Shown: positions 19,263 to 50,265 of the stretch, piece after piece | Layout: every line of letters starts with the position of its first letter | Numbering within the stretch: the first letter of the stretch is position 1 | IMG/VR virus record: IMGVR_UViG_3300046007_014013 | Coordinates: 1-51,473 of that record | Source: a virus | Reading direction: 5' to 3' (one strand) | Length of the DNA: 51,473 nucleotides | The notes under the pieces: generated by a model | Databases searched by the model: none | What the model was told of the DNA's origin: nothing | The model's input: the letters and a program-made list of their open reading frames with translations, nothing else | Translations under genes and position numbers: made by a program

Positions 19263-19427
19263 ACCCGTCAGGTAAATTACAATAAATCCTCCAAAGTGCT
19301 TTTGTATAAGCCTTTGGAGGATTTTTAACTTTAAGCCCACGTCAGGAGAAATCGTTATTAGAGAAGAAAATGAATGACGCGATTTGTATGACGTTTCCCT
19401 AAAAACTCCATTTTTACTTGACGTTTT
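19263..19427. repeat. TGACG repeat island A, with inverted 55-bp copy at 47531-47585
   Basis: Holds five CGTCA/TGACG motifs (19266, 19340, 19375, 19389, 19419) around a hairpin. Bases 19339-19393 are repeated in inverted orientation and, as far as I can read, without mismatch at 47531-47585. CGTCAGGTAAATTAC before the hairpin recurs in near-identical form, inverted, near 48351-48367. Confidence 0.75.
19284..19326. terminator. Bidirectional hairpin terminator after RNR
   Basis: Thirteen-base arms AAATCCTCCAAAG / CTTTGGAGGATTT around a 15-base loop, followed by TTT. The same hairpin arms occur at 47609-47649 and, slightly changed, at 48309-48349. Confidence 0.75.
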
Positions 19428-22409: not shown

Positions 22410-23326
22410 AGATCGCATACAACAACCCTCAAGCTATAACCGTCCTTCCCAATAATGCAAAATTAAAATACGAACATGACTTTAATTGTTTAACAGAAAT
22501 AGTTAAAGATAAAAATTTTAAACCATTCCTTAAGTGGGTAGGAGGCAAAACTAGATTAATTCCTCAATACGAAGAATTAGGATTAATCCCCGCCGAATTT
22601 AATACTTATTTTGAGCCATTTTTAGGTGGCGGCGCAATGTTTTTCCATTTACAAAATATAGGATTAATTAACCGCGCACTTTTAAGTGACTTAAATAAAG
22701 ACTTAGTTAATACTTACAAAGAAGTTAAGGATAATTTAAGTAAATTAAAACAAGTTCTTTTAAAGGATTTCGCAGAAGCTCACAATAAAGAGTTTTTTGA
22801 AGAAGTTAGAAATAAGCAATTTAAGAGTGATGTTTATAATGCTGCAAAATTTATCTACTTAAACAAAGCTTGTAGATCGGGAATGTACCGCGTTAATAAA
22901 AGCGGCAGTTTTAATGTTCCTTTCGGACTGCCGGGACAAACTATTTACCAACCTGAACTTTTAACTAACAGTAATTTAGCCTTAAACAGTAATAATGTAG
23001 CGGTAGTTAATACATCTTTCTTTAATATTAGTCATTTGCCTCAACCTGGCGATTTTGTATTTTTAGATCCACCTTATCATGGGACTTTTAATGGTTATAA
23101 CAAAAGCCCGTTTGGGGAAGATGAGCAAGTTAAATTAAGAGACGTATGTAGGGAATACAGTGAAAATAAAATAAAGTTTTTACTTTGCAATTCTCACAAT
23201 AGTTTTATTTTAGATTTGTACAATGGGGATGAATTTAAAATTAATGAAGTTTGGAGAAATGGTACGATAAATAGTAAAGGCGCGGAAAGAGGTAAAGTTA
23301 AGGAGTTAATTATTAGTAATGTATGA
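22406..23326 (+). CDS. DNA adenine methyltransferase, Dam (D12 class) family (306 aa)
   Basis: Transfers methyl from S-adenosylmethionine to N6 of adenine, probably in GATC. Motif X is FLKWVGGKTRLIP (~residues 40-52), motif I is YFEPFLGGGAMFF (~68-80), motif IV is FVFLDPPYHG (~219-228), the DPPY box. Length is normal, with ~35 extra N-terminal residues. ATGA overlap upstream and an 8-bp overlap downstream show one operon with the Dcm-like enzyme. GATC lies in the centre of HIP1, so the enzyme could mark HIP1-rich DNA. Target sequence is inference from the family. Confidence 0.9.
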   Translation: MKIAYNNPQAITVLPNNAKLKYEHDFNCLTEIVKDKNFKPFLKWVGGKTRLIPQYEELGLIPAEFNTYFEPFLGGGAMFFHLQNIGLINRALLSDLNKDLVNTYKEVKDNLSKLKQVLLKDFAEAHNKEFFEEVRNKQFKSDVYNAAKFIYLNKACRSGMYRVNKSGSFNVPFGLPGQTIYQPELLTNSNLALNSNNVAVVNTSFFNISHLPQPGDFVFLDPPYHGTFNGYNKSPFGEDEQVKLRDVCREYSENKIKFLLCNSHNSFILDLYNGDEFKINEVWRNGTINSKGAERGKVKELIISNV

Positions 23327-23543
23327 CCCATTTTTAAACACAATAAAAATACTTCATATAGAGGTATTGTGGCAGATGCTTTATAACATAAAAGAAAGCG
23401 TAGAAATATTGGAAAAACAATCTGTGGCGCAGGAGAAAAGTAAGGATTATAAAAATTATTATAAATCCTTTAAATACCTAAATCAGTGCCGCTGGAAAGT
23501 TTTGGAGATTAGCAAAGAAATAGAAAGTAGGGTTTTGAAATAA
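23319..23543 (+). CDS. Small helical protein between two methylases (74 aa)
   Basis: Charged helical sequence MLYNIKESVEILEKQSVAQEKSKDYKNYYKSFKYLNQCRWKVLEISKEIES. The longer start (23319) overlaps the Dam-like gene by 8 bases; ATG 23376 is an alternative that gives 55 residues. The stop overlaps the Dcm-like start by one base. No family recognised. Confidence 0.55.
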   Translation: MYDPFLNTIKILHIEVLWQMLYNIKESVEILEKQSVAQEKSKDYKNYYKSFKYLNQCRWKVLEISKEIESRVLK

Positions 23544-24559
23544 TGAAAAAGTTTTTATGGTTTTCGCATTTTAGCGGCGGTGGCGGCTCAACTTTGGGAG
23601 CAATCCAAGCTGGGTTTATGCCTTTGCTGGGGATTGAGTGGGATAAGAAAGTGGCGGAATTATATGAGAAGAATTTAGGTAAAGTAATTTGCCAAGATAT
23701 AGGAGAGGTAAGTATCCTAAGTGTTATAAAACATATTCCATTAAAAGAGGCAAGGGAAAAGAATAATGAGATTTTAGTAATCCAAACTTCGCCACCATGT
23801 CAGGAGTATTCCCAATTAAAACTAAATAAAAATCCTAATTCCGAAAGTGCAAAAGTCATTTGGAAGACAAGGAAGTTTTATGCTTTATTTAGACCTGAAT
23901 ATGTAATTTTAGAAAACGTTAGGGCTTATGCTAAAAGCGAGGTTTATATTAAATTTAAAAATTACCTTAAGGAATTAGGCTATGAAATAAGTTTTGAGGA
24001 GATAGTTAACTGTGCTGACTATGGCGTGCCACAAACTCGCCAAAGATTAATTACTATTTTTAACTATAGAAATTTCCCTGCCGTAAGGATTAGTTTTACG
24101 CATAGTAAAAATAATGGTGAATGGGTAGGATGGTACTCAGCAATTGAAGATTTAATCCCTAATTTAAAAGAAGTTAGTTTAACCAGAAAACAACTTAACT
24201 CTCTAAGTTTAAGGAATAAAGGCTTTAGTAATGCCAAGGTAGTCGTAGAAAGAGTTGGCGCAAGAAGTAAGGTGAATAAAATCCGTGAGGAAGATTCACC
24301 AATTTGGACAATAAAAGCATCTTTAGGAAGCGATGGAAAGGGTGCGAATAGGGAAAAGTTAATAGACGTAAGCATAAATGGCGTTGTAAAAAGCTTAAAC
24401 GTGGCGTGTTTGGCCAGATTGCAGACTTTTCCGCCAAGTTATGAATTTTCTGGCAAAAACGCCTTGGATGTTCATGTAATTGGCAATTCTGTACCACCAT
24501 TACTTATTAAAGTAATTTGTGAGGAGATAAAAAATACTTTTAATACTTTTGGGGATTGA
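23543..24559 (+). CDS. DNA cytosine-5 methyltransferase, Dcm family (338 aa)
   Basis: Makes 5-methylcytosine through a covalent Cys intermediate. Motifs in order: I FSHFSGGGGSTLGAIQAGF (~7-25), IV TSPPCQEYS with catalytic Cys (~88), VI ENVRAY (~124), VIII PQTRQRLITIF (~161), a target recognition region (~195-270), IX ACLARLQTFPPSYEF (~286) and X GNSVPPLL (~315). All catalytic motifs are present. No restriction endonuclease gene is next to it, so it is an orphan or protective methylase. Its 3' end overlaps the next promoter at 24556. Confidence 0.93.
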   Translation: MKKFLWFSHFSGGGGSTLGAIQAGFMPLLGIEWDKKVAELYEKNLGKVICQDIGEVSILSVIKHIPLKEAREKNNEILVIQTSPPCQEYSQLKLNKNPNSESAKVIWKTRKFYALFRPEYVILENVRAYAKSEVYIKFKNYLKELGYEISFEEIVNCADYGVPQTRQRLITIFNYRNFPAVRISFTHSKNNGEWVGWYSAIEDLIPNLKEVSLTRKQLNSLSLRNKGFSNAKVVVERVGARSKVNKIREEDSPIWTIKASLGSDGKGANREKLIDVSINGVVKSLNVACLARLQTFPPSYEFSGKNALDVHVIGNSVPPLLIKVICEEIKNTFNTFGD

Positions 24560-24608: not shown

Positions 24609-24873
24609 ATGCAACTTAAAATCTTTGAGATAACTGGTGAGTATGCTATATGTCACGGCGACGGGCATTTTTTATGATCACCCTGGGGAAATTGTAGAAT
24701 TAAGTTTCGTGGGAGTTAGAGTTTTTCATTTTAGTTTCTTTAGGATATTTTTTAGCCAATTAATTAAGGAATTTTCTTTAGTTGATGTTAAAGATAAATT
24801 GGAGATTACTAATATAACGGGAGACGGTTGGGAAGTTTTACAAGGAGTTTTTAAAATAGAGGCTAATAACTAA
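24609..24873 (+). pseudogene. STAS-like (DUF4325-like) small protein split by one extra T in a T6 run
   Basis: ATG 24609 reads MQLKIFEITGEYAICHGDGHFL then TGA. Removing one T from the run at 24668-24673 gives GDGHFYDHPGEIVELSFVGVRVFHFSFFRIFFSQLIKEFSLVDVKDKLEITNITGDGWEVLQGVFKIEANN, a continuous ~87-residue protein. GEIVELSFVGVRVF.FSFF resembles STAS-like DUF4325 domains (a strand, then helix with SF). GTG 24637 in the second frame would give only the C-terminal 78 residues. The break may be real decay, slippage-dependent expression, or a sequencing error. Confidence 0.55.
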
Positions 24874-24992
24874 AAATACTAGGGAAAGATGAGGAAGATG
24901 AGAATTTAGTAATTAGCTTAGATGATAGGCTAGAAGTCGTAAGTCAATATCCTAATTTAAAAATAGTCGTAAGTGAGAAAGTAAAATGCTAA
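24870..24992 (+). other. Possible small reading frame without a normal start (40 codons)
   Basis: Open frame LKILGKDEEDENLVISLDDRLEVVSQYPNLKIVVSEKVKC that ends with TAA overlapping the next ATG (ATGCTAA), typical of coupling. No ATG, GTG or TTG begins it, so it may be a remnant or may use a rare start. Confidence 0.3.
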
Positions 24993-25408
24993 TACTAAAA
25001 TTTGTGGGGAAAATAACTCCTGAAGTAAATCCTGGGATTTATATAGAACATCGTTACGAAATAACTAAGGACAGCCCGCAAATATTTATTTTGCCAAAAC
25101 CTTCAATATTTGATTCCGTTTGTGTAAGTGATGGCGTTAAATTTAAGCCACTGGCTATGGATTTTTCTTATTATCGTGTGCCGGGTTTTTGGGATAGTGA
25201 TTTATGCGTAAGGACAGATGTTTATCCATTACTTTGGTTATTTTACGCATTTATTGTTTTTTTAGATAGGTGTAACTTAAAGCTCAAAAAAGTAGTCTAT
25301 AAATTTTTACTGTGGACAAAACAAGGTAAAGATTTTCTTCCCGTTGGCGAGAGAGTTAGTTCTTGGAGAGAGTTTTTTAAGTTTTATTTAATTAGTTTAG
25401 GAGGATAA
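24986..25408 (+). CDS. Hypothetical protein (140 aa)
   Basis: Starts MLILKFVGKITPEVNPGIYIEHRYEI. It contains one hydrophobic stretch (YPLLWLFYAFIVFL) that could be membrane-associated, followed by basic residues. Sits in a run of small same-strand genes and is followed 3 bp later by the next ATG, with GGAGGA spanning the junction. No family recognised. Confidence 0.5.
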   Translation: MLILKFVGKITPEVNPGIYIEHRYEITKDSPQIFILPKPSIFDSVCVSDGVKFKPLAMDFSYYRVPGFWDSDLCVRTDVYPLLWLFYAFIVFLDRCNLKLKKVVYKFLLWTKQGKDFLPVGERVSSWREFFKFYLISLGG

Positions 25409-25411
25409 AAA

Positions 25412-25705
25412 ATGTTAATTAATTTACCGAAATGCAGAACCCATATTAAGTTTGAGGAAATGTATGAGTATTTCTTTACAGAGGCTAACTTCCCAGAATT
25501 AGTGGAGCGAAACCTCAATTACGGATGGGAAGGTTTGAACACATATAAGTTTATTAAATTCCTCCAAAATAACAAAATCCAGGGCGTGAATGCAGGGGTA
25601 GACAAGCTTTATAGCGTCGCACAGCTTGAAGAGTTGTATAAACAAATTAAGTCTATCGATCCTGAAGACTGGAAGTCAGGCAATTTAAGTTTTCTAGAAA
25701 GTTAA
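25412..25705 (+). CDS. Hypothetical protein (97 aa)
   Basis: MLINLPKCRTHIKFEEMYEYFFTEANFPELVERNLNYGWEGLNTYKFIKFLQNN. Strong ribosome site GGAGG 8 bases before ATG. Mixed helical sequence with no membrane segment. It belongs to the small-gene run behind the methylases. No family recognised. Confidence 0.6.
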   Translation: MLINLPKCRTHIKFEEMYEYFFTEANFPELVERNLNYGWEGLNTYKFIKFLQNNKIQGVNAGVDKLYSVAQLEELYKQIKSIDPEDWKSGNLSFLES

Positions 25706-25729
25706 AGGTTAAAGTAAAGGTAATTTAAA

Positions 25730-26020
25730 ATGTCTCATGAATTTAGACTCGCTTGCAAAACCTGTAATTTAGAAACAGAAGAAGTTAATCACGCTCAAGA
25801 AAGTATTAAAAATTTCTTGAGTAAGTGGGAGGAAAATAAAAACGCCCTAACTAAAGTATTAGATTTAGGGTTGTTTGATATTGGTGATGTGCGCGAAAGT
25901 TTTAGGTCTAAATCACTTCCTGTAGATATTTATGAATTTATGCTTTTGCATGAAAATCATGAACTAGTAATTAGGTCAGAATACACATCTGTAGCAGATG
26001 AGGTAATAAAGCTAAGGTAA
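25730..26020 (+). CDS. Hypothetical protein with one CxxC (96 aa)
   Basis: Starts MSHEFRLACKTCNLETEEVNHAQESIKNFLSKWEENKNALTKVLDLG. The N-terminal CKTC pair could join a metal or redox site, but no second pair is present. Remaining sequence is acidic and helical. Its stop overlaps the open frame of the DUF1828-like gene. No family recognised. Confidence 0.6.
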   Translation: MSHEFRLACKTCNLETEEVNHAQESIKNFLSKWEENKNALTKVLDLGLFDIGDVRESFRSKSLPVDIYEFMLLHENHELVIRSEYTSVADEVIKLR

Positions 26021-26328
26021 AAAAAGCGTTAATTTTTAAGCTAGAGGAAGAATTTAACAATTTATTTACTGTTAAAGAAAATGGCTATGGGTACATAAAG
26101 TTAAAAACACCATTTACTTTACCGGATGGTGCAATTATAGATGTTTACTTAAAGCTAAATAAAGATGGAGACGTAGAGCATATCACCGACTTAGGATGTA
26201 CATTAGGGTGGGTCTATGTGAACTGCCACGAAGAAGATAGAAGTGCGGATTTTTGGGAGAGGGTAAAAGATTTTGATGTAGGTTTCAAAACCCTCTCCAA
26301 ATACGGGATTAATGCAAGAAGTTTTTAA
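26017..26328 (+). pseudogene. DUF1828-like protein lacking a recognisable start
   Basis: Open frame VKKALIFKLEEEFNNLFTVKENGYGYIKLKTPFTLPDGAIIDVYLKLNKDGDVEHITDLGCTLGWVYVNC...GINARSF. The pattern of N-terminal helix, TPF..PDG..IDVYL and ITDLG.TL matches the DUF1828 domain, often found in small toxin or phage-accessory loci. The frame opens after a TGA near 25995 and no ATG/GTG/TTG precedes the domain. An A7 run sits at its very start, so a slip or indel there may have cut off the true start. Confidence 0.5.
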
Positions 26329-26364
26329 ATTAATTACTGCAATTATTTAACTCCATAATTTTTT

Positions 26365-26393
26365 TTGCATAAAACTTAAAAGCATCGTAAAAT
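26365..26393 (+). promoter_or_regulatory. Promoter for the tail-fibre genes
   Basis: TTGCAT at 26365 and TAAAAT at 26388, 17-base spacer, 36 bases before ATG 26429. It lacks the ACGGTAG core. Confidence 0.5.
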
Positions 26394-26428
26394 GTAAATA
26401 TAGTATATTTTAACACACGCTTTTAAGT

Positions 26429-27148
26429 ATGCCTACGATAAATAAAGGCGACCTGCCTAGATATGAAAATGGCGAATATGGGCAATCTGAATTAACGCAA
26501 GCTGTGGCTAATGCCGAAGTAGCAGCACTCTTAAATCCTAGTAGCGGTGGCGGAGGCTCTACCACGGTTAACTTTGGCACTAAAATAACAGATGCTACTA
26601 TACCTACCGGTGGTGTGGGTAACTTAGGTTGGTTGTCTGCGATTTGGAAACTGATAGGCGATCGCATCCCTCCAAAGTCAGCTTATGAATCCTCAACCAC
26701 AATTACAATTACTCGCGCTGCTACTACAACTTATACTGCTTCTGCACCAAACTTTGATGTTTATGGCAGTCTATTCCAACTTCAAAATATAGGCGAAGCT
26801 GGTAAAGGTATATTCCTATCTTATTTTGAAATATCTCTCAATCTATCTTCTGTACCTACGGGTATGACTTCTTTTTCGGTACAACTGTACCCTACAGAAC
26901 CTACAGCTATCGCAGATAATAGCATTTGGACAATTGGCTCTGATCCGGTTCTAGACCCTGTAGGTTTCAATGTACCTATGAGTTTAGCTAAAGGAGGGGG
27001 TAAGGTTGTTGGCGTTATTAAAGACTTAAATCAATTGTTTATTTTAACCAATTCAAGTTTGTGGGGGTATTTAGTAACAAATGGGGCAATTGTCCCGACT
27101 GCTAACTCAGAAACGGGGACTATTCGTGCTAGGAGCTTTTCGGTATGA
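26429..27148 (+). CDS. Putative tail fibre/baseplate-region structural protein (239 aa)
   Basis: Starts MPTINKGDLPRYENGEYGQSELTQAVANAEVAALL, then a Gly-rich hinge (NPSSGGGGSTT) and a beta-rich domain (SSTTITITRAATTTYTASAPNFDVYGSLFQLQNIG, FSVQLYPTEPT). Ends GTIRARSFSV. Stop overlaps the next start by ATGA. It is read opposite to the head and tail genes and next to a receptor-binding-like gene, so a host-recognition role is likely. Contains one HIP1 site at 26660. Confidence 0.6.
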   Translation: MPTINKGDLPRYENGEYGQSELTQAVANAEVAALLNPSSGGGGSTTVNFGTKITDATIPTGGVGNLGWLSAIWKLIGDRIPPKSAYESSTTITITRAATTTYTASAPNFDVYGSLFQLQNIGEAGKGIFLSYFEISLNLSSVPTGMTSFSVQLYPTEPTAIADNSIWTIGSDPVLDPVGFNVPMSLAKGGGKVVGVIKDLNQLFILTNSSLWGYLVTNGAIVPTANSETGTIRARSFSV

Positions 27149-27990
27149 GAACTTCTACACTTAGAATTGTGGTATTGGGTGGTTTTAAATGTGTTCTTGA
27201 TTTAATTTTTGCTATAGCCTCTGTCGCTTATGGATTAAGACGGCTTTCCAGGTTTTGGACTGGCGCAGCTATAAGAGTAATGAGAACTAGTGATAATGCA
27301 CAGATAGATATTGGTTTTATTGGAGAGGATTTAGATGTAGTTACATTATTAGCATTTGTCGGTTTGGACAACGGTGAGATTGTTATCTGGTATGATCAAT
27401 CTGGCAATGGTCGTCATGCAGTTTCAACGGCGGGGCTGCGGCCGCGCATTGTGAATGCGGGCGTGTTGGAGACGCGAAACGGAAAGCCAGCGTTGCGGCT
27501 GTTGTCGTCAACGCTAAACATCGCTCCAATATCGTTCACAAACGGATATGTCGGCGCTGTTGCGGCTGCCGCGTCGGGCGATGACAACGCCCCCGTGGTT
27601 CTGTACGATCCACCAGTAGGAGGCTACAATGGCTTAATGGGGTTTTCGGGCGGATCTTTTATCCGATTCAGGGTTCACTCCCCGGACTCCCATGGAGCAT
27701 TCCAGTATGCAAATCCCGTGAACACCAACATTCTCATGTCGTACACAGCCAACACAGCCAACGGTGTTGCGAATATCAGATATTTTATCAACGGGACGCA
27801 GAAGGCTACGAACACAGGAGCAGCGATTACGCTGCCACCCGTCATTGGCATCGGCGGGTCTCACGCCAGCCAATGGCTCCGGGACGGGACTGTGCAAGAG
27901 GTTGCGGTATTCAATACCGCCCTATCCACCACCGACCGCCAAACCCTTGAGCGCAATCAGGGATCTTATTACAACATCACAGTAGCTTGA
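27145..27990 (+). CDS. Receptor-binding-like fibre protein with arabinofuranosidase-B-like lectin fold (281 aa)
   Basis: YGLRRLSRFWTGAAIRVMRTSDNAQIDIGFIGEDLDVVTLLAFVG ... VIWYDQSGNGRHAV is the signature found in many phage tip proteins related to the alpha-L-arabinofuranosidase B/LamG jelly-roll group. C-terminal ...VQEVAVFNTALSTTDRQTLERNQGSYY is the closing LamG-type segment. Probably binds surface glycans. From about 27425 to 27985 the DNA is far richer in G+C than the surroundings (includes a GCGGCCGC site), while the first ~280 bases are AT-rich like the neighbours. This points to exchange of the tip domain. The N-terminal ~30 residues are hydrophobic. Confidence 0.72.
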   Translation: MRTSTLRIVVLGGFKCVLDLIFAIASVAYGLRRLSRFWTGAAIRVMRTSDNAQIDIGFIGEDLDVVTLLAFVGLDNGEIVIWYDQSGNGRHAVSTAGLRPRIVNAGVLETRNGKPALRLLSSTLNIAPISFTNGYVGAVAAAASGDDNAPVVLYDPPVGGYNGLMGFSGGSFIRFRVHSPDSHGAFQYANPVNTNILMSYTANTANGVANIRYFINGTQKATNTGAAITLPPVIGIGGSHASQWLRDGTVQEVAVFNTALSTTDRQTLERNQGSYYNITVA

Positions 27991-28021
27991 GGAAAATCAT
28001 ATTAGTGGATAATTAAAAACC

Positions 28022-28459
28022 ATGACAAAACAACAATGGCTGCTTTCTCAAATTGAACAATTCCCTGAACTATCTCCCAGGGAATTAACTTCATACCTCA
28101 ACGATAAAGTATTAGTAGATAATCCAGTGCCAATAGGACAAGTATCTGTTGTACCTACAGTAGAAGAAGTATCTACCATAGTGACAGATAGTGAAGTCTT
28201 AGCTATAGCTGAAAGTCCAGTCTATTTAAGGATATTAGATGCAATTAATCAGAATCGACCTGATTGGATTGTTGGCAACTTAACAACATTAAAACGTGGT
28301 GGCAAACTAACCCAAGCAAGTTTTGATGCAATTTTAGTATTACTTCAAAGGACTCAACTAGACCCTAATTATCAAGAGCAAATAAGTATAAGCCCTGCTG
28401 AATTGGCAGGGCATGGGGTTATTTTAGTTAGTGATGTTGAGGAATTATTAACTCCCTAA
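28022..28459 (+). CDS. Hypothetical protein behind the fibre genes (145 aa)
   Basis: MTKQQWLLSQIEQFPELSPRELTSYLNDKVLVDNP then ESPVYLRILDAINQNRPDWIVGNLTTLKRGGKLTQASFDAILVLLQRTQ. Helical, with a GKLTQASFDAIL hairpin like short phage structural or chaperone proteins. It overlaps the terminase gene tail to tail by 12 bases. Could be a fibre assembly factor. Family not recognised. Confidence 0.6.
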   Translation: MTKQQWLLSQIEQFPELSPRELTSYLNDKVLVDNPVPIGQVSVVPTVEEVSTIVTDSEVLAIAESPVYLRILDAINQNRPDWIVGNLTTLKRGGKLTQASFDAILVLLQRTQLDPNYQEQISISPAELAGHGVILVSDVEELLTP

Positions 28460-29962
28460 ACTTCCCCCAAATACTAAATTCTGGGATAAACAAGAATGTG
28501 CGCCACTTCCCCCGTCTACAACATCATTTGTGGGCGGGGTTTTTCTACTGCCGTCAAAAGCATCCACGTAAGATAAAAAGTCATCATTCCACCAAGCTCT
28601 TAGTATTTTTATCTTCCCGCTCCTAGCATCCATAGCCCAGGGTTTAGCCCGGGTTAATTTATCGCCAAGAGGTTGGACTCCCTTACAATTACACTCAGGC
28701 AAAGCTTTTTTGATTGTCCTAATTAAGCTTTGTTCATGTCTCCTTGACGCTGAACCGCCCTCTAACTCCCACCGTTGCTTAACTTTTTTACCATCCGCCA
28801 CGGCCATCGTTACGATTTGGTTATCGCCCTCTTCTGCTCCTAACTGTTCCCAGTAAACATCTAAGATGTAATATTCATACTCTCCCGTAAATTTATTTTT
28901 AACTTTCATCCATTTCTGGGATGCACTAAAGCATGAGGATGAAGAGGCAACTTCTTTAGCTGTACTGGCCAAATCCCAAAACCTTAAAAATTGGGCAGAA
29001 GTTAAATCCATGCTGCTTAACTGTTCTTGATCTATTATCTCAAACCACGAACGGTTAAAGACTAATCCTGCCGACCATTTAATCTTCCAATTACCTTTAA
29101 GCAATCGCTCCATGTCAACATTAAGTAATGAAAGTAAATTAGCTTTGTAATCAGGGTTTTGGCTTAAGAGAATCTTATTGTCGTCTAAGGTTGCACTAAT
29201 AAAAGTTAAGGATTTTGGCGGCGCAATTTTAGCTAATTCTGGGAATTTAAGCATTAATTCTTCTGCGGAATCTCCCCAGTGAATAACGTTATTTAAGCGG
29301 TAAAAGTATCTTAAAACGCCTGACCTTTCTTCGATAGGGTATCCCGTCGTAGGGTTAATATACCAATCAATTAATTTAGCTACCCACGAATCTGCGTCAG
29401 GGTTACAGGTTGCATCAATCCTTGGCTTAACTCCGCACGTACTTCTATTTCTTGAAAATAAGAACCAAAATTGTTTTTCGGTAAATTTATTTAACTCATC
29501 AAAGCCAATATAGGCTATTTGCGCTCCGGGGAATTTATTCTCTACGTCTTTTTCATGTTGAGCGTGACCAAAGCTAATAGCTGCGCCGCTGGGAAATTTC
29601 CAATCTAATTTACCCTCTCTTGGAATTGCACCAGGGACTAAGCCAAATAATTTCTTAGACTCATCCCATAAACCACCCTCTGTTGTTATTTCAGGCGAAG
29701 TCCGGCGGAAGATTACCGCACCATAATTAGGGTTATCAATATTAATTAAAGACTTCCTTAACAATGCCCACGACTTCCCGCCTCCGCCGGCTCCTCCATA
29801 TATGCACACATCAGCGCGCGTATTTACAAAGCTTGTTTGCTTTCCAGGCTGTGGATCTGGAAGGGTAAAAGTTACCGCATTATTCTTAGCTTTTTCGTTA
29901 ACCTTGGACTTTAATAAAGTTGTTGGTGCGCCACTTAAAAAATCTTTTCTTTTGCTTCCCAT
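28448..29962 (-). CDS. terL: Terminase large subunit (504 aa)
   Basis: Packaging motor ATPase and headful/cos nuclease. Walker A GGAGGGGKS (~56-64), Walker B IAYIGFDE with Asp155-Glu156, coupling region RIDATCNP (~181-188), nuclease motif FLRFWDLAST with Asp330, and late acidic/His region DVVDGGSGAHS. Length is normal. Start ATG 29962 follows AAGGA. The large terminase is separated from the candidate small subunit (33908-34549) by 4 kb of plus-strand genes and from portal by 6.4 kb, whereas these genes are usually adjacent. Confidence 0.93.
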   Translation of the reverse strand: MGSKRKDFLSGAPTTLLKSKVNEKAKNNAVTFTLPDPQPGKQTSFVNTRADVCIYGGAGGGGKSWALLRKSLINIDNPNYGAVIFRRTSPEITTEGGLWDESKKLFGLVPGAIPREGKLDWKFPSGAAISFGHAQHEKDVENKFPGAQIAYIGFDELNKFTEKQFWFLFSRNRSTCGVKPRIDATCNPDADSWVAKLIDWYINPTTGYPIEERSGVLRYFYRLNNVIHWGDSAEELMLKFPELAKIAPPKSLTFISATLDDNKILLSQNPDYKANLLSLLNVDMERLLKGNWKIKWSAGLVFNRSWFEIIDQEQLSSMDLTSAQFLRFWDLASTAKEVASSSSCFSASQKWMKVKNKFTGEYEYYILDVYWEQLGAEEGDNQIVTMAVADGKKVKQRWELEGGSASRRHEQSLIRTIKKALPECNCKGVQPLGDKLTRAKPWAMDARSGKIKILRAWWNDDFLSYVDAFDGSRKTPPTNDVVDGGSGAHSCLSQNLVFGGSLGS

Positions 29963-30152: not shown

Positions 30153-30217
30153 TTAAATAAATTAATTAAAGTCCCGGCACTAAATTTAAAATATTTAAGG
30201 ATTAAATTAGCGATCGC
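30153..30217. repeat. 65-bp direct repeat, copy 1
   Basis: As far as I can read identical to 30827-30891. Begins TTAAATAAATTAATTAAAGT, contains TCCCGGCAC, and ends with a HIP1 octamer. Lies in the 500-bp interval between terminase and the gene at 30469. Confidence 0.85.
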
Positions 30218-30468: not shown

Positions 30469-30735
30469 ATGAAAACCGTACAGACCATATCTGGAGACAA
30501 TTTCGTATTAGTTACTGACGAAAAGGAGATCCCTATCTCCAGACCTTATCTAAATCATTGCGATATAGAGTATAGAAAAAAGAAGGAGGAACACTGTGCA
30601 AACTATAACCTTCAGGCACACCATCAAGAACGTTATGGCGAAGGTCTTTTTCAAGGATACGATTACGGCCACGATTTGGGGATAAACGATCCCTTTGCTG
30701 AAGAGATATTAGGGTCGGATATCTTGTTAAGATAA
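30469..30735 (+). CDS. Hypothetical protein (88 aa)
   Basis: MKTVQTISGDNFVLVTDEKEIPISRPYLNHCDIEYRKKKEEHCANYNLQAHHQERYGEGLFQGYDYGHDLGINDPFAEEILG. Several His, Cys and acidic residues but no clear motif. Own promoter and terminator make it a single-gene unit. AAAGAAAGGGA provides the ribosome site. Confidence 0.65.
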   Translation: MKTVQTISGDNFVLVTDEKEIPISRPYLNHCDIEYRKKKEEHCANYNLQAHHQERYGEGLFQGYDYGHDLGINDPFAEEILGSDILLR

Positions 30736-30751
30736 TACCAAAATACTCTTA

Positions 30752-30793
30752 AAATAAACCTCTTAAAACTTAATTTAAGAGGTTTATTTTTTT
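30752..30793 (+). terminator. Hairpin terminator
   Basis: AAATAAACCTCTTAAA / TTTAAGAGGTTTATTT arms with a short loop, then T-run. Ends the 30469 transcript. Confidence 0.8.
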
Positions 30794-30826: not shown

Positions 30827-30891
30827 TTAAATAAATTAATTAAAGTCCCGGCACTAAATTTAAAATATTTAAGGATTAAATTAGCGATCGC
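30827..30891. repeat. 65-bp direct repeat, copy 2
   Basis: Second copy of 30153-30217, again ending in HIP1 and preceded by another HIP1 at 30818. Confidence 0.85.
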
Positions 30892-31401: not shown

Positions 31402-33267
31402 ATGGCTAATACATTCGTAACCGGCAACTACTACAAAAATAGCTCTAGAGAGATCATTATTCTCATTACGTCCAGAACAAAATGCTTTGTAGTTTACAAA
31501 GAGTTTTGGATTAGTGACTTAAACAACTGCTATCAAGACGGTAAGGTTAAGGTAAGAGTTAATGAAAATAACGACGAGTTTGTTTTAATCGATGGATTTA
31601 GTAAATACTCGTCCGTTGACGAGTATGTGAAGTATGTAAAGGAGGAGGTTAATGTTAAGGTGGAGGTTAATGTAAAGGAGGAGGTTAATGTTAAGGAGGA
31701 GGTTTATAGCGCAGTACACAGAAACTTTTTACAAGTTGGTAAAAAGTTTAAATACGTAGATTTAAAAAATGACATCTTGCAAGATGTCATTTTTGAAGAC
31801 ACTAACGGTAATGGTACGATTTTAAACTTTAGAGCCATCAATAAAGATGGCAATCCAATTTACTGTCACGGCAGTTTGTTTGTGGTTACTTTAAGTAACC
31901 GCGATTGTTTAAAACCTTTTAATTATTTAACTGTTGAGGATAGTGATTTACCTTTAACTAATGCGATCGCAACAGATGTAAAGGAAGAGGAAGTTAAGGA
32001 AACTCTTGAGGATAGCAACCTACCTTTACCTACTAATGCAACAGTTAATAATGTAAAGGAAGAGGAAGTTAAGGAAGAGGTTGAATTTACCTTAACAGAT
32101 GACAACAAAGCCGCTATTCAGGCGATTGTCAAATTAGATCCCGTAAGGTGTAATTGGAGCAATTTAGAGCGGACTGCATACAGTAAACTAACGGCATGGG
32201 TAAGCTATCCCCATGACTCTAGAGATATTAGAGGCGTTTACGAGGGCGCACTACTGGTTTTAAATACCATTAGTAAGGAAGATAAAGCACGGGTTAAGGA
32301 ATTGGTGGTTGAGGGCAAAAAAAAAATAACTCTTGAGGATAGTGATTTACCTTTACCTACTAATGCAACAGTTAATAATGTAAAGGAAGAGGAAATTAAG
32401 GAAACTCTTGAGGATAGTGTGTTACCTTTACCTACTAATGCAACAGTTAATAATGTAAAGGAAGAGGAAATTAAGGAAACTCTTGAGGATAGTGTGTTAC
32501 CTTTACCTACTAATGCGATCGCATTAGTAGGTAAGGTTACAAAGGTTAAAATATTAACCAAAATGGTAGCGGTTAACCCCGCTGTACACCACGAGGTTAA
32601 ACTAATCCATGATCCTATCTTTGGATGGCAGCTAATGGGCGCGGACTCGCAATTATTAAGAGAACCTCTTAATGAGGATAAAACACAACCTACCATTAGG
32701 TTTAAAACCCGAGAGGGTGCTTCAACTTTTGCCGTAAAGCTTATGGCAAAGGTTAAGGAATTAGTTGAGAAAAAAGAATTGACCTTCAAGGAGGTACAGA
32801 AATATGCAGAAAATGCGGGTTATGAACTGACAGAACTCACCAATGAGTATTGTAATTTTAGCGTAAGTTCCCTCTTCTGTCGGAAAGGGAAGTTTACCAA
32901 ATTGATAGATGTCGTTGAGGTAATTAAGGAGGGTAGGCTGCTAAATGGTGAGTTTAGCAACCTACCCTTACCTACTGATAATAACGCGATCGCAACAGAT
33001 GTAAAGGAAGAGGAAAAGGAGGAAAATATGCTGACTAAAGAAAGTTACGCGGCTATAAAACTTTTAGTTAAGATGGATTTTACTTCGCGGGGTTTAACCC
33101 AATTTGAGGTTATGGCTCTGAATAGTCTTAGGAAGTACATAGAAAACGGAATAGAACCAAAACTAATCAAAACTTTTGCGGAAGTTTTGATTAAAAAACT
33201 CACGCCGGAGGAGAGACTTATCTTAAGAGATAAGTCTCTTGAAAAAGTTTTTAAGGGTCGCAAGTGA
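31402..33267 (+). CDS. Modular protein with repeated acidic linkers (621 aa)
   Basis: Folded-looking blocks are joined by linkers of the type LEDSDLPLPTNATVNNVKEEEVKET, which recur six times (about residues 176, 200, 309, 334, 358, 512). Blocks: 1-75 (small beta domain, TGNYYKNSSREIIILITSR), 103-172 (beta, VGKKFKYVDLKNDILQDVIF), 225-305 and 547-618 (two related helical domains with LT....AAI..(I/L)VK(L/M)D..........L...), 375-500 (WQLMGADSQLLREPLN; AVKLMAKVKELVEKKELTFKEVQKYAENAGYELTELTNEYCNF). Two linkers encode NAIA from HIP1 octamers. Near residue 80, VNVKEEV is repeated three times. Function unknown; architecture suggests a scaffold holding several binding domains. Confidence 0.75.
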   Translation: MANTFVTGNYYKNSSREIIILITSRTKCFVVYKEFWISDLNNCYQDGKVKVRVNENNDEFVLIDGFSKYSSVDEYVKYVKEEVNVKVEVNVKEEVNVKEEVYSAVHRNFLQVGKKFKYVDLKNDILQDVIFEDTNGNGTILNFRAINKDGNPIYCHGSLFVVTLSNRDCLKPFNYLTVEDSDLPLTNAIATDVKEEEVKETLEDSNLPLPTNATVNNVKEEEVKEEVEFTLTDDNKAAIQAIVKLDPVRCNWSNLERTAYSKLTAWVSYPHDSRDIRGVYEGALLVLNTISKEDKARVKELVVEGKKKITLEDSDLPLPTNATVNNVKEEEIKETLEDSVLPLPTNATVNNVKEEEIKETLEDSVLPLPTNAIALVGKVTKVKILTKMVAVNPAVHHEVKLIHDPIFGWQLMGADSQLLREPLNEDKTQPTIRFKTREGASTFAVKLMAKVKELVEKKELTFKEVQKYAENAGYELTELTNEYCNFSVSSLFCRKGKFTKLIDVVEVIKEGRLLNGEFSNLPLPTDNNAIATDVKEEEKEENMLTKESYAAIKLLVKMDFTSRGLTQFEVMALNSLRKYIENGIEPKLIKTFAEVLIKKLTPEERLILRDKSLEKVFKGRK

Positions 33268-33865: not shown

Positions 33866-33909
33866 AATATCCCTAACCTTATTTAATTTAAGGTTAGGGA
33901 TATTTTTTT
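33866..33909. terminator. Bidirectional hairpin terminator
   Basis: AATATCCCTAACCTTA / TAAGGTTAGGGATATT arms with A-run before and T7 after. Serves the plus-strand zinc-finger gene and the minus-strand gene at 33908. Confidence 0.8.
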
Positions 33910-34549
33910 AGCCATAGTTAATGTCAGTTAAAGTTATATCTGTAATCTCTTCACTGTTTACAGTAATGGTATTGTCTAAAGTTTCCAAAAGTCTTGCAAC
34001 GTCCAAAGCTTCATTTAAATTACGTAAAGATTGCTCGCCACAAGCATTGCCAGCGGCTACGATATTTCTCAAATCTTGCGATCGCATATTCTCTAATAAG
34101 TCTGGATTATTCTCATAATTTTCCAAAACTTTCTTAGCAATATCCAAACACTTTTGAGATACATCTAAATTAGACCAGCCTAGAATCTCACTTCTTTCTC
34201 TATAACGCTGTAATTTATCTATATGGGAAGAAATTTCTAATGCTTCTGCGTGCTTACGCTTTTCTAATTCTATATATCTGTCATACTCTCTAAGTCTTTC
34301 TTGCCAGAAACTTTTCGTACTCCAATCATTCATCTGTTGGGAATAGCTTTTGATAGATTTTTTAAAAGCGATCGCTACTTTCTCAAAAGTTCTTCTTATA
34401 CCCATATCACGGTAGCACATAAATGCTTCATAGCTCTTGCTGGTGTCTATTCCGGGCAAATAGTCCCACACATTCACATTCAATTCTAAAGCTACTGCGT
34501 GACATCCTTTAGCTAAAGCTTCTTTATTGTAAGTAATATGAGCGGGCAT
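33908..34549 (-). CDS. Probable terminase small subunit (213 aa)
   Basis: YEAFMCYRDMGIRRTFEKVAIAFKKSIKSYSQQMNDWSTKSFWQERLREYDRYIE matches the helix-turn-helix plus W..R...YDR pattern of phage small terminase-like proteins. The C-terminal half is helical and acidic, as in oligomerising TerS. AGGAGAAGGAG upstream of ATG 34549 is a strong ribosome site. It is on the same strand as TerL and upstream of it, but 4 kb of plus-strand genes lie between. It should recognise the packaging start site. Confidence 0.68.
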   Translation of the reverse strand: MPAHITYNKEALAKGCHAVALELNVNVWDYLPGIDTSKSYEAFMCYRDMGIRRTFEKVAIAFKKSIKSYSQQMNDWSTKSFWQERLREYDRYIELEKRKHAEALEISSHIDKLQRYRERSEILGWSNLDVSQKCLDIAKKVLENYENNPDLLENMRSQDLRNIVAAGNACGEQSLRNLNEALDVARLLETLDNTITVNSEEITDITLTDINYG

Positions 34550-35053: not shown

Positions 35054-35093
35054 AAACCCCTCTTAAAATTTATTTTTAAGAGGGGTTTTTTTT
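35054..35093. terminator. Second hairpin terminator
   Basis: AAACCCCTCTTAAAA / TTTTAAGAGGGGTTT arms with T8. Closes the unit before the noncoding region. Confidence 0.8.
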
Positions 35094-36024
35094 GTATTCC
35101 GACGGTAGATAAAATAAAAAGTCATAAATTTCAAATGACAATTATTCCTGATAACGCAAAAAAAACAGCCAAAAAACGCACTTTTTTTAAAACGTTAAAA
35201 CCCTTACACCGAGTTAGTTTTAAGCGTTTTTTAAGGGTTTTTTAGCTGTTTTTAAAAACTCTCTTGAGAATAATTAGCAACAAGACTAAAAAACCTTACG
35301 ACTCTCTCTATATAAGGGTTACAGAGATTTTTTATAAGCCTTATTCCTATTAAAAAGTTTGTTTTTTTAATGCAAAAACTCTGCGTATACTACTGCGTAA
35401 GGGTTTTAGACATTGAGAATAAGTTATTTTTTTTAAAGCTTAAACGCGCTTAAGATAGGGGAAAATGCCCAGGACTTAGGCGGACTAAGAGTTTCAGGGA
35501 TTTTTATTAAAAAAGTCGTTTTTTACCTGGCGGCGCGTCAGGTAAAAATGGTAAATAGCTAAAAGCCTTATAGGATAAAGGTTTTGCGCTGTCAATGTTA
35601 AGAACGTCAGGTAAAATCCTTATTATTAATAAGAAAAAAAGAATAAATAGACTGACGGCGTTAGATAACCTTACTAAATTATGTAACTAACAGCCTACTT
35701 ATCCAAAACCCTTGCAGCGCGTGGCTTTTGGATTTTAAAAATTTTAAAAAACGCCTCTTTTTAATTGACGTTTTTGTATGACGCGGTAAAAACGTCAGTC
35801 AAAATCCCTATACTATAGTAAAGAAAACTATCTGACCCCATTGCATGACGTTTTTACAAAAACTTCCACTACTTTTACCTGACGTTTTTAGGGTATGCGT
35901 TTTAATAATATAGATTTACCTGACGTTTCCGCTAATTCCATTTAAACGCGCTTAATAATGTATTTTTAATTTAATAAATAGCGGGTAAGATTTTTTACCT
36001 TGTAAAGTTCCGTATATTAGCCAC
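35094..36024. repeat. Noncoding TGACG repeat island B with hairpins (candidate replication/partition region)
   Basis: No convincing gene in ~930 bases. 35098-35106 has a CCGACGGTAGA promoter core. 35140-35280 contains a long imperfect inverted repeat (AATTATTC..AAAAACAGC against GCTGTTTTT..GAATAATT) enclosing AAAACCCTT/AAGGGTTTT. 35520-35548 is TTTTTACCTG / CAGGTAAAAA. 35701-35733 is an ATCCAAAA/TTTTGGAT hairpin. TGACG/CGTCA occurs at about 35536, 35604, 35653, 35766, 35779, 35793, 35846, 35880 and 35921. 35794-35836 is repeated, inverted, at 48246-48283. Confidence 0.7.
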
Positions 36025-36053
36025 TTGCTATCGGTAGAGTAGTAGTGTTAAAA
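36025..36053 (+). promoter_or_regulatory. Promoter of the ACGGTAG family (variant TCGGTAG)
   Basis: TTGCTA at 36025, TTAAAA at 36048, spacer starting TCGGTAGAG. Precedes the gene at 36092. Confidence 0.55.
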
Positions 36054-36091
36054 TTTAAGGAAATAAATTAGGATTAAAAGGCAAAAAAAAT

Positions 36092-45928: not shown

Positions 45929-46135
45929 TTATTTAACCTCTATGTAAATATTGGGGTCTGAGTAAAACCTATAGACAGGCTTAATTATTTTTTTATTAGA
46001 AATTAAGCCGAGAGAGTTTAGTAAAGCTGCACCTATTATTAAAGTTAAAATTAACGTGGGGTTAATTTTAAAGCTTAGGTTTTTATGCTGGGGTCTTAAA
46101 AGCTTGGGATATTCTTTTAAAGTCCATCGCACCAC
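45929..46135 (-). CDS. Small single-span membrane protein (68 aa)
   Basis: One membrane helix (LILTLIIGAALLNSLGLI) and a short outer tail (KPVYRFYSDPNIYIEVK). The only usable starts are GTG codons at 46135/46132, giving a 53-base overlap with the upstream gene, which is unusual. The coding nature of the membrane part is supported by tight spacing to the next gene. Confidence 0.5.
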   Translation of the reverse strand: MVRWTLKEYPKLLRPQHKNLSFKINPTLILTLIIGAALLNSLGLISNKKIIKPVYRFYSDPNIYIEVK

Positions 46136-46775
46136 CCTTTAAAATCTCGTTAACTTTATTTAAGCCGCTTTTTAACTCTTGAGAATTTTTATTAAGTCCA
46201 GATGTGGCCACTTGGGTAATTTCCTCCATCGCGGAGGCTATTTTTTGGGAATTAGCTTGAACTTTATAATTAATAAAGTTAATGACTGCGGTTTTAATCT
46301 CATCTAAAGTTTCCTCAAGGTTATCGGAAGATGTGTTAATTTCTTGGGCAACTAAATAAACCTCTTCCGGCGTTAAAGTTACGCCCATTTCCTGCGCCGC
46401 ACTTTTTATTAATTCCCCCTTATTTTCTTCCTCTTCTTTACTTTCTTGGTTAATTAGCTTGTAAATTTCCTCCCGAATTTCATCTTCTGAGGTTAACGCC
46501 TCTAGTGCATTTAATTGGATGGGGGTTAAGTCTAAGAAATACGTCTTGCTAATTTCTAAGGCTTTTTCTCTAGCGTTAAAAATTACCAATTCTCCCCCGC
46601 TAAAAAAATTAAAAGCCGCATCCATATCTTCCTTAGAAAATTCTTCTTTCTCTAAATCCAGGGAATTAAAAAAATCCCTAATTTCCGGCAAATCCTTCTT
46701 AATGGATTTTTTATTAAGCCTCGATTGAACTCTTTTCGCAGCTACGTCCGATGTGACCTTAACATTACTTGCCAT
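46083..46775 (-). CDS. Acidic coiled-coil protein (230 aa)
   Basis: MASNVKVTSDVAAKRVQSRLNKKSIKKDLPEIRDFFNSLDLEKEEFSKEDMDAAFNFF. Helical throughout, very acidic middle (EDEIREEIYKLINQESKEEEENKGE), and a C-terminal amphipathic repeat region (LNKNSQELKSGLNKVNEILKGG). Overlaps the upstream HTH gene by 11 bases. No family recognised; likely a soluble part of the same machine. Confidence 0.6.
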   Translation of the reverse strand: MASNVKVTSDVAAKRVQSRLNKKSIKKDLPEIRDFFNSLDLEKEEFSKEDMDAAFNFFSGGELVIFNAREKALEISKTYFLDLTPIQLNALEALTSEDEIREEIYKLINQESKEEEENKGELIKSAAQEMGVTLTPEEVYLVAQEINTSSDNLEETLDEIKTAVINFINYKVQANSQKIASAMEEITQVATSGLNKNSQELKSGLNKVNEILKGGAMDFKRISQAFKTPA

Positions 46776-47214
46776 TTACTTTTAATTCCTCTGTTTGTTT
46801 AGCTTTATAAATTAAAGCCACAGCCACTAGGGGCAATACTGTGGATTTGTCGTAAAATTTCCCCTTCCTGAACCCTCCGATATTTTTAAACCACCTGCTT
46901 ACCGTACTTTGGTTGGGGTAAATTTCATAGTCCTTTATTAATGTTAAAAACTCCCCTCCCGTCATGCCCTTAAACTCTTTCAGATTGGGGATGGTTTCCC
47001 GTCCCATAGCCTGTAATTTTTCCTTAATTTCAGCGTATTTGCGGAAATATCTAGGACTTACTTTTCTTAAATTAATTAAAATTACAAACCCTTCTTTAGT
47101 TAAGGGTAATTCACAAGCTTTCAAAGTCTTTTTAGTCTTAGACCAATGCGAATCCGAACACCTCCCGTTTAATAAAGTTTCGTAAATTGCTCTTTCTGTA
47201 TCAAGTTTTTGCAT
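46765..47214 (-). CDS. Helix-turn-helix regulator-like protein (~149 aa)
   Basis: Preferred start ATG 47214 (MQKLDTERAIYETLL). An upstream in-frame ATG at 47250 lies inside an inverted repeat and is less likely. Residues near 100-118 read YEIYPNQSTVSRWFKNIGGF, a helix-turn-helix-like segment with the second helix STVSRWFK. First gene of the membrane-ATPase cluster. The inverted repeats at its 5' side fit autoregulation. Confidence 0.6.
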   Translation of the reverse strand: MQKLDTERAIYETLLNGRCSDSHWSKTKKTLKACELPLTKEGFVILINLRKVSPRYFRKYAEIKEKLQAMGRETIPNLKEFKGMTGGEFLTLIKDYEIYPNQSTVSRWFKNIGGFRKGKFYDKSTVLPLVAVALIYKAKQTEELKVNGK

Positions 47215-47345
47215 AAAATACGGCGCACCCCCCTTATTTAGTAGTCGCATCCTGCATAAAAAGGGTGCAAGGTTTAAATTTGAAAAATTTTATGCAGGAT
47301 ATAAGACCCTTAATTTAAGGTCGCACCCATGTAAAGACCTTTAAA
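47215..47345. promoter_or_regulatory. Operator-like repeats upstream of the membrane-ATPase cluster
   Basis: A perfect 13-bp inverted repeat ATCCTGCATAAAA / TTTTATGCAGGAT spans 47249-47300. TTTTATGCA recurs at the start codon (47214). GGGTGC/GCACCC occurs three times (47225, 47263, 47333). These are likely binding sites of the HTH protein. Confidence 0.6.
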
Positions 47346-47499: not shown

Positions 47500-47658
47500 C
47501 TATAAAACTTTGGAAGGTAAAAAACGCCGCCGTCATACAAATCGCGTCATTCATTTTCTTCTCTAATAACGATTTCTCCTGACGTTTTTGGCTGCGTGTT
47601 TTATAGAAAAATCCTCCAAAGTCCCTTTATGTAAGACTTTGGAGGATTTAGTGGGATT
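47500..47658. repeat. TGACG repeat island C1 (inverted copy of island A)
   Basis: 47531-47585 is the inverted copy of 19339-19393. The hairpin AAATCCTCCAAAG / CTTTGGAGGATTT lies at 47609-47649 in the same relative place, with a different loop and spacer. The 47460-47500 stretch before it holds nothing I recognise. Confidence 0.75.
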
Positions 47659-48109
47659 TTAGTTTCCGATCCCAACCTCTCTATTGGCTATTTCAGAAAA
47701 ATAAATAACTGAGGCGATCGCTAACCATCTTCCAAAGATTAGTCGCTGACTTCGGTTATGTGTCAGTTCTATTGGGATTTTAACGCCGATAAGATACCCT
47801 ATCAAGGGCTGAAAAATTGGATACATTATTTTTGCCAAAAGACTTGGCTTTTCTGCTGCCAATAAATCAAATGTAGTATCCCAGTCGAGATCTAGCTCTC
47901 TGATATCTAGCGGTAAACCAGTAATTACCGCTGACTGGATTAGTTCATTGCCTGGATTGGTTCTTGCAAGTGTGGCAAGGACTCTTCTTCGTGCAATATC
48001 TAGCACAAAGTTCTCACTACTCTTGGATTTTTTTGCACTTTTGGATTATTTTCCGAACCGTTGCTTGAGCAGGTGTTGGTAACTCTGAATATATTTCGTT
48101 GAGTTTCAT
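47659..48109 (-). pseudogene. Hypothetical protein split by one extra A in an A7 run
   Basis: ATG 48109 reads MKLNEIYSELPTPAQATVRKIIQKCKKIQE then TAG. Dropping one A from the run at 48028-48034 gives ...KCKKSKSSENFVLDIARRRVLATLARTNPGNELIQSAVITGLPLDIRELDLDWDTTFDLLAAEKPSLLAKIMYPIFQPLIGYLIGVKIPIELTHNRSQ..., a continuous 149-residue protein. The C-terminal part may be translated alone from GTG 48006. Own ACGGTAG promoter and GGGAAAG ribosome site. Family not recognised; the C-terminal half has one hydrophobic segment. Confidence 0.6.
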
Positions 48110-48142
48110 TTTACTTTCCCCGTTACTTTTTAACTTACTCCC

Positions 48143-48171
48143 ACTATACATTATCCCTCTACCGTTGTTAA
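48143..48171 (-). promoter_or_regulatory. Promoter of the ACGGTAG family (minus)
   Basis: On the minus strand TTAACA, 17-base spacer ACGGTAGAGGGATAATG, TATAGT, then GGGAGTAAGTTAAAAAGTAA. Nearly identical over ~50 bases to those at 49245 and 50153. Confidence 0.75.
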
Positions 48172-48179
48172 GTACCTAT

Positions 48180-48375
48180 TGGGAAAATAAAACGTCAGAC
48201 AAAACTACCAAAAACGCGATCGCAAAAAAGTAATTTGGGCAGCACGTCAGATAGTTTTCTTTACTATAGGGATTTTGTCTGACGCTTCATATAACTTTAC
48301 ATAATCAAAAATCCTCCAAATCTTTATACAGTAAGATTTTGGAGGATTTAGTGTAATTTACTTGACGATTGGGAC
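48180..48375. repeat. TGACG repeat island C2
   Basis: CGTCA/TGACG at 48193, 48245, 48280 and 48363, a HIP1 site at ~48216, and hairpin AAATCCTCCAAA / TTTGGAGGATTT at 48309-48349. 48246-48283 (GTCAGA...TCTGAC) is the inverted relative of 35794-35836. 48351-48367 matches the left part of island A. Confidence 0.7.
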
Positions 48376-48409
48376 TTATAGTCATCAGTTTTGACAAACT
48401 TATAAGACC

Positions 48410-49210: not shown

Positions 49211-49244
49211 TACCTTCTCTCCCGTTACTTTTTAACTTACTCCC

Positions 49245-49273
49245 ACTATACATTATCCCTCTACCGTTGTCAA
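49245..49273 (-). promoter_or_regulatory. Promoter of the ACGGTAG family (minus)
   Basis: TTGACA, spacer ACGGTAGAGGGATAATG (17), TATAGT, then the GTTAAAAAGTAA leader. Drives the TPR gene. Confidence 0.8.
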
Positions 49274-49336
49274 GTAGTTTAATTTAAATTTAATTTAAAT
49301 AACAGTATTTAAGGCATAATTAAAATTTAAAGTGAT

Positions 49337-49577
49337 ATGTCAGGACAGAAAAATAGAATTACTGTGCAAATTAGTGAGAGAAATAAAGATTTACTTGAGA
49401 TAGACGCTTGGCTTTCGGGAAGGACTGTATCGTTGTGTGCTGGGGTTATGTTAAGTGAAAAAATACAAGAGGAAGAGCTAAGGATTAAGGAAGATTTAGA
49501 ATATTTGGCAAAAAAAAAGAGGCTTAACACCAGAAGAATTAACTAAATTAATCCTTAATGATGAAATAAGCCTCTAG
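49337..49577 (+). pseudogene. Small protein split by one extra A in an A9 run
   Basis: ATG 49337 reads MSGQKNRITVQISERNKDLLEIDAWLSGRTVSLCAGVMLSEKIQEEELRIKEDLEYLAKKKRLNTRRIN to a stop at 49546. Dropping one A from the run at 49510-49518 gives ...DLEYLAKKRGLTPEELTKLILNDEISL to TAG 49575, a more typical acidic C-terminus. The first part (ITVQISERNKDLLEIDAWLSGRTVSLCAGVMLSEKI) fits a ribbon-helix-helix DNA-binding fold as in plasmid copy or antitoxin proteins. Confidence 0.55.
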
Positions 49578-49696
49578 CTCGAAGGGTAAAAACCCGCGCT
49601 TAAATTCTCTCCATTAATTTTTCTGCGAAGCGTGCAAGCGATTCTTTTAATACTCCGCAGGAGCTTATTTGAATTTGAACCATATAGGGGAATAGC

Positions 49697-50119: not shown

Positions 50120-50152
50120 CAGCAAATCCTCTTACTTTTTTAACTTACTCCC

Positions 50153-50181: not shown

Positions 50182-50187
50182 GTACCT

Positions 50188-50262: not shown

Positions 50263-50265
50263 CCC

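Follow-up and report, generated by a model that had tools for sequence, protein, structure and literature searches.

A short asymmetric element of about 54 bp, built around two or three copies of one box, is dispersed through the intergenic DNA of a likely cyanobacterial phage. Its boxes are conserved, several copies follow terminators with an invariant stem, the terminator and element together stand behind different genes, and alleles have been replaced between close relatives. We propose, with a probability of about 0.45, that it is an operator or boundary site with several boxes, dispersed over the genome and bound by one putative DNA-binding protein, and that its copies would be kept alike by recombination between them. 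The DNA analysed (the window) is the whole 51,473-base IMG/VR virus record IMGVR_UViG_3300046007_014013, to which coordinates refer unless another record is named (Table 1).

The window encodes both terminase subunits, a prohead protease and a weak portal match, together with DNA methylases, a DarB-like helicase-methylase of 1,908 aa, a ribonucleotide reductase (RNR) and a ParM-like partition protein. An essentially identical terminase is encoded by 25 IMG/VR loci. The longest of these relatives, G001 (72.7 kb), overlaps the window over about 33 kb and looks to supply the remainder of a circularly permuted map; its genes beyond the window include DNA polymerase III alpha, RecJ, thymidylate synthase and a CyRepA1-family plasmid replication protein. 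Next to the last of these, inspection of the sequence shows an IS200/IS605-type tnpB and tnpA pair (G001 22652-24422). All the records are metagenomic fragments, with no complete genome among them. A cyanobacterial host is likely, since the HIP1 sequence GCGATCGC occurs 18 times in the window and the plasmid relatives of the ParM-like and replication proteins are found mainly in Nostoc, Calothrix, Tolypothrix and related genera; a terminase-based host search of GTDB genomes gave no relative. A tailed phage with CyRepA1-type and ParM-like genes is likely to be a cyanobacterial phage-plasmid. An earlier sequence-only reading had described a phage- or plasmid-like cyanobacterial replicon with one repeat family common to three islands, and this description holds.

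The repeated element

There are 61 TGACG/CGTCA sites in the whole window, at densities of 2.66/kb in non-coding and 0.92/kb in coding DNA. All 21 non-coding sites fall within 19266-19423, 35536-35925 and 47531-48367, with none elsewhere in 7.9 kb of non-coding DNA, where first-order Markov simulation leads one to expect 3.6 ± 1.9 (largest value 10 in 1,000). The stretch 35515-35940 holds nine sites, the simulated maximum per 426 bp being four, and CCTGACGTTTTT with up to two mismatches was observed 21 times against 6.7 ± 2.6 expected. The motif density in the three islands noticed in the sequence-only reading is therefore far above chance. The same reading held that genes lack such clusters; isolated TGACG sites do occur in genes at background density.

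Three repeats pointed out earlier were recovered. The 55-bp block at 19339-19393 is identical to 47531-47585 at 55/55 positions in inverted orientation, and the identity stops exactly at the CGTCA and TGACG ends, the 30-bp flanks being unrelated (20% identity). The unit bounded by GTCAG/CTGAC, placed at 35794 and 48246, is shared over 24/24 bp (35813-35836 and 48246-48269); a further 33 bp match at 85%, the 35.8-kb copy carrying an insertion of 5 bp. The hairpin that occurs three times, at 19284, 47609 and 48309, has arms of 13, 13 and 12 bp.

The repeated unit is asymmetric, and ten distinct sequences of it align as CGTCAG-nn-AAAATCC-yTATnA-n-AAGAAAA-n-TGAC(G)-N8-9-TGACG. CGTCA, AAATC, TAT and TGAC are invariant or nearly so; the boxes and the blocks between them are conserved while the rest of the element varies. 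The putative binding box has a consensus of approximately TTTTrCCTGACGyTTTT. In the preferred geometry box 1 is inverted, box 2 lies about 35 bp further on and box 3 a further 13-14 bp, with conserved A-tracts between them; two-box and three-box forms both occur. A profile search seeded with nine copies, in which the hits after the true copies were at noise level, gave five copies in the window (19340+, 35605+, 35793+, 47584-, 48284-) and four in G001 (4276-, 10837-, 28549+, 57405+), about nine in total, with more alleles in relatives.

These repeats had been taken for hairpins. The unit folds no further than the 5-bp CGTCA/TGACG pair, and the only hairpins are the neighbouring terminators. 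Because single copies fold weakly or variably, and the consensus structure amounts to no more than the pairing of the boxes themselves, we read the boxes as probable protein sites rather than as a hairpin. A structured RNA or DNA hairpin was rejected on these grounds, and the element has no match in Rfam.

Exact-pattern scans found no copy of the element in GTDB genomes (85k), plasmids or GenBank phages, and more distant relatives would be missed since the patterns were exact. In IMG/VR the pattern matched 21 stretches: 20 belong to close relatives of the window, and the remaining one (contig L104) is only partly homologous. The carriers of the element are close relatives of one cyanophage. 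A looser pattern, CTGACGTTTTT-N5-35-TGACGTTTTT, matched nine unrelated contigs (L033-L041) that share no homology with the window; these matches were taken as chance. As far as the exact-pattern scans show, the repeat is confined to this replicon and is not scattered over host chromosomes.

Table 1. Genes, repeats, hairpins and predicted promoters discussed in the text (window coordinates unless G001 or L078 is named).
Feature	Position	Strand	Remarks
Class II-type RNR gene	15879-19262		with intein and LAGLIDADG domain
Large terminase (TerL) gene	28448-29962		
Small terminase (TerS) gene	33908-34549		
ParM-like actin/partition protein gene	50266-51405		
CyRepA1-family replication gene	L078:5034-8543		= G001 24834-28343
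CGTCA box	19266..19270	-	right after RNR stop; start of terminator-element module
Hairpin, 13-bp arms AAATCCTCCAAAG/CTTTGGAGGATTT then TT	19284..19324	+	probable RNR terminator; loop inverted in relatives
Element copy 1, 54 bp	19340..19393	+	behind RNR gene; CGTCA 19340, TGACG 19375, TGACG 19389
Single TGACG box	19419..19423	+	TTTTTACT upstream
Single box	35536..35540	-	within inverted pair TTTTTACCTGGCGGCGCGTCAGGTAAAAA
Element copy 2	35605..35657	+	box 2 degenerate; conserved in G004 and G007
Hairpin, 8-bp arms, 17-nt loop	35701..35733	.	loop inverted in G004
Two TGACG boxes	35766..35783	+	35766 and 35779, 13-bp spacing
Element copy 3, three boxes	35793..35850	+	5-bp insertion TATAC; L014 allele shorter, two-box
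Two more boxes ACCTGACGTTT	35880..35925	+	35880 and 35921
TTGACnnCGGTAGA-type phage promoter, predicted	36025..36054	+	consensus match only; upstream of gene at 36092
Element copy 4	47531..47584	-	exactly as copy 1
Terminator-type module hairpin	47609..47649	-	behind ORF 47659-48006 (-)
Repeated promoter segment TTrACAACGGTAGAGGGATAATGTATAGT	48119..48174	-	more copies 49221-49276, 50129-50184
Single box	48193..48197	-	between element copy 5 and next promoter
Element copy 5, two-box form	48245..48284	-	
Terminator-type module hairpin	48309..48349	-	behind TPR gene 48410-49210 (-); loop inverted relative to homologous G001 module
TGACG box	48363..48367	+	between TPR gene stop and TPR terminator
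Inverted loops, window	19284-19324, 30751-30790, 35054-35088, 35701-35733, 48309-48349		
Inverted loop, G001	24856-24885		
Predicted TTGACnACGGTAGA promoters, window	20024, 30406, 34695, 36032, 48164, 49266, 50174		
Predicted TTGACnACGGTAGA promoters, G001	7956, 24531, 24959, 28638, 58089, 68553		

Position and variation among relatives

At the 3' end of four genes, a copy comes after a terminator whose stem, AAATCCTCCAAA/TTTGGAGGATTT, is invariant, the loops and linkers being variable. The order of stem terminator, linker and element is found behind the RNR gene, ORF 47659-48006, the TPR gene and the DNA polymerase III alpha gene of G001 (4.3 kb), and a CGTCARG box precedes the terminator in three of these four modules. 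In G001 the module that follows the polymerase gene shares 87% identity with that behind the TPR gene in the window; either the module has been copied or the genes upstream of it have been exchanged. Homology between L104 and G001 begins inside the terminator hairpin of the polymerase module.

A separate promoter repeat whose spacer is unusually conserved, TTGACnACGGTAGA-n-TATAAT-like, occurs across the genome; the promoter calls are consensus matches and are little above shuffles. The element lies upstream of a promoter-like site at 28.5 and 10.8 kb of G001 and at 35.5 kb of the window, where the predicted promoter is downstream of the island. It stands between a terminator and a promoter at 48.2 and 35.5 kb of the window and at 28.5 kb of G001. 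The 19.3-kb copy is flanked by genes that converge on it, and no promoter match is close by; the orientation of the element with respect to genes is not uniform (35.6 and 35.8 kb, and 10.8 kb of G001).

The element is present at every comparable site: at the 19.3-kb gap in 18 locus records, a number that overstates the independent contigs since records of one contig can overlap; at the 35.5-kb gap in G004 and G007; and at the 28.5-kb gap in G001, G005, L092 and L107. No relative is comparable over the 47-50 kb region, so occupied and empty sites cannot be set side by side there. Window-type and G001-type records agree at about 99% of positions to either side of the 19.3-kb element, while the elements of the window and G001 differ by 7/54 substitutions, compared with about 8/950 outside (P ~4e-6). 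G001 has an extra 31-bp CGTCA-bounded unit here; of the two alleles, that of the window matches the 47.5-kb copy exactly. In the 35.8-kb element L014 shows two small deletions and a single substitution relative to the window, with about one SNP in the surrounding 700 bp; the variation includes a 13-bp deletion between TGAC repeats. The simplest account would be copy-by-copy replacement through recombination confined to the common element, with gene conversion as the putative copying mechanism.

In six cases the loop of a strong palindrome is reverse-complemented between relatives with the flanks unchanged; among size-matched random segments the figure was 1 in 2,242. Chloroplast genomes provide documented cases of minute inversions in stem-loops (for example PMC6824564); a limited literature search found no report of them from phages. 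Small palindrome-driven inversions, known from chloroplast genomes, also recur in a cyanophage population.

The relatives also differ elsewhere. A DNA methylase gene is present or absent at one site (G005 3886-6386; L092; L107), the G005 copy having an apparent intein with an HNH-like insertion and the L092 and L107 copies none. An exact 65-bp direct repeat (30153-30217 and 30827-30891) flanks ORF 30469-30735, and the segment between its two copies is missing in L008, L025 and L029, which suggests deletion between the repeats. The coding, repeat-rich stretch 31928-33025 (75-bp units) varies strongly.

Candidate functions

The copies are dispersed, intergenic, multi-box and always occupied where they can be compared, which fits binding sites of one phage protein at transcription-unit borders. 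On this hypothesis each element would display two or three copies of its box to one phage-encoded DNA-binding protein, usually after a terminator and before the next promoter (the convergent 19.3-kb gap being an exception), and the bound complex may control or insulate neighbouring promoters, as an operator or a boundary. Because all copies share sequence, recombination between them would exchange one for another and move the terminator-element module behind different genes, so that the copies would evolve together. Both the protein and the regulatory effect are putative. The only clear small DNA-binding candidate found is a Myb/HTH protein (G001 32859-33254), which is not linked to the element. 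An HTH-looking protein adjoining the 47.5-kb island (46765-47250) had no meaningful match in PDB or PHROGs, the search method used found no relative of ORF 46083-46775 in IMG/VR, and no phage repressor was identified. The readings as origin, ParM partition site, packaging site and attC fit less well, and each fails at least one test.

It is rather unlikely that the boxes are maintenance sites of the phage-plasmid, either origin iterons or dispersed centromere-like partition sites as in N15. The phage-plasmid look of the genome favours such a role: there is a ParM-like gene, and in G001 an element lies about 206 bp behind the stop of the CyRepA1-family gene. Several copies adjoin replication genes (Pol III alpha, CyRepA1, RNR), and the arrangement of three boxes around A-tracts is reminiscent of partition sites or origins. 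The phage-plasmids N15, with dispersed centromeres, and P1, with parS, similarly have several dispersed or multi-box asymmetric sites; unlike these, no ParB was found here, and the partition gene is ParM-like. Its upstream region contains no box, there being no TGACG in the non-coding DNA of 48367-51473, whereas parC sites are arrays of repeats within the parM operon's promoter region; a different repeat, AAATTTAGCCAA, is present upstream of the ParM-like gene. The partition site suggested earlier is thus not supported. Neither are the suggested iterons of one origin, which would be direct repeats of one orientation in one cluster beside rep: the boxes have both orientations and occupy at least seven intergenic gaps over the two genomes. 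Upstream of the CyRepA1-type gene there is a single TGACG, which is a promoter -35. The CyRepA1 origin region of pSYSA maps upstream of the gene (PMC9978351). Two Nostocales CyRepA1 plasmids have no comparable cluster beside the rep gene. GC skew, proposed as a check for the origin, gave no origin signal and is uninformative because it follows the gene strand. A packaging function, also raised in the sequence-only reading, would call for one pac/cos site at or near TerS; just one island lies near that gene, about 1 kb away, and other copies are found at 19.3, 47.5 and 48.2 kb, as well as in additional G001 gaps.

It is distinctly unlikely that an enzyme moves the element as a small, non-autonomous repeat of MITE/REPIN type with CGTCA/TGACG borders. 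The borders of the copied unit fall exactly at the terminal boxes, the module is found behind different genes, and G001 has the tnpA-tnpB pair. However, gene conversion between copies likewise yields exact borders, since the element alone is shared; every comparable locus is occupied, no target-site duplication was seen, and the exact-pattern scans place no copy in GTDB genomes, plasmids or GenBank phages. Of the mobile palindromic repeat envisaged earlier there remains a 54-bp unit copied and swapped from island to island; neither an empty site nor a transposase or recombinase family that would move it was found.

Quite improbable is a new DNA-organising or boundary system, in which one protein would bridge the roughly nine dispersed three-box elements behind terminators and insulate units or anchor the plasmid form, the sites doubling as module-exchange hubs. 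That the copies are degenerate intergenic leftovers without present function, spread by recombination, is very unlikely: box 2 is lost at 35605 and two-box forms exist at 48284 and in L014, but the boxes and inter-box blocks keep their sequence where the remainder of the element has diverged, and all comparable sites carry a copy. Crossover sites of an integron attC-like cassette exchange that shuffles accessory genes are hardly credible: the element does lie at gene 3' ends, as attC does in cassettes, and box-to-box units are gained and lost (the 31-bp unit at 19.3 kb, the 13-bp deletion at 35.8 kb), but ten records, all possibly incomplete, contain no tyrosine or serine recombinase (PF00589, and so an IntI-type enzyme, is absent), no integrase or resolvase was found, the boxes are CGTCA/TGACG with only a 5-bp pair folding in place of RYYYAAC/GTTRRRY with a bulged hairpin, and the best-resolved gain/loss junction, that of the methylase gene at 28.6 kb of G001, is in the promoter repeat, 30 bp from one element and not within it.

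Relation to known phage repeats

T4-like myoviruses reportedly carry PeSL cassettes, each an early promoter with a stem-loop, said to have been described by Arbiol in 2010 and Comeau in 2014. Such promoter/stem-loop cassettes are cited in PMC4503421. Like them, the modules described here are short regulatory stem-loop modules at gene borders, behind different genes and shuffled at repeats. They differ in that a PeSL combines promoter and stem-loop in one repeated unit, whereas here the unit is a terminator with a TGACG-box element, the promoter repeat is a separate family and the phage is not T4-like. The class I intergenic repeats of halovirus HF2 are 58 bp long, virus-specific and shown to carry promoters, according to PMC8707807. 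Our element is similarly virus-specific and of about that size, with conserved blocks, intergenic gaps and a position kept among relatives, a likeness in kind with no kinship of sequence; unlike the repeats of this archaeal virus, it has no recognisable promoter of its own and is tied to terminators. The stoperators of Cluster A mycobacteriophages, as described in PMC6550527, are solitary sites of 13 bp, most of which point the same way with respect to transcription, and their repressor is known. In both systems one binding motif, putative in the case of the element, recurs along a phage genome away from promoters, but the elements have two or three boxes each, with box 1 inverted, in mixed orientation.

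By the tests made, the element is not a PeSL or a stoperator. It belongs with the phage intergenic regulatory repeats, an already known kind of which it is a variant, if its function is as proposed. It provides a clear case of intragenomic copy replacement at a putative regulatory site. If one phage protein does bind it, the element would give a handle on the control of transcription or maintenance in a little-studied type of cyanobacterial phage.
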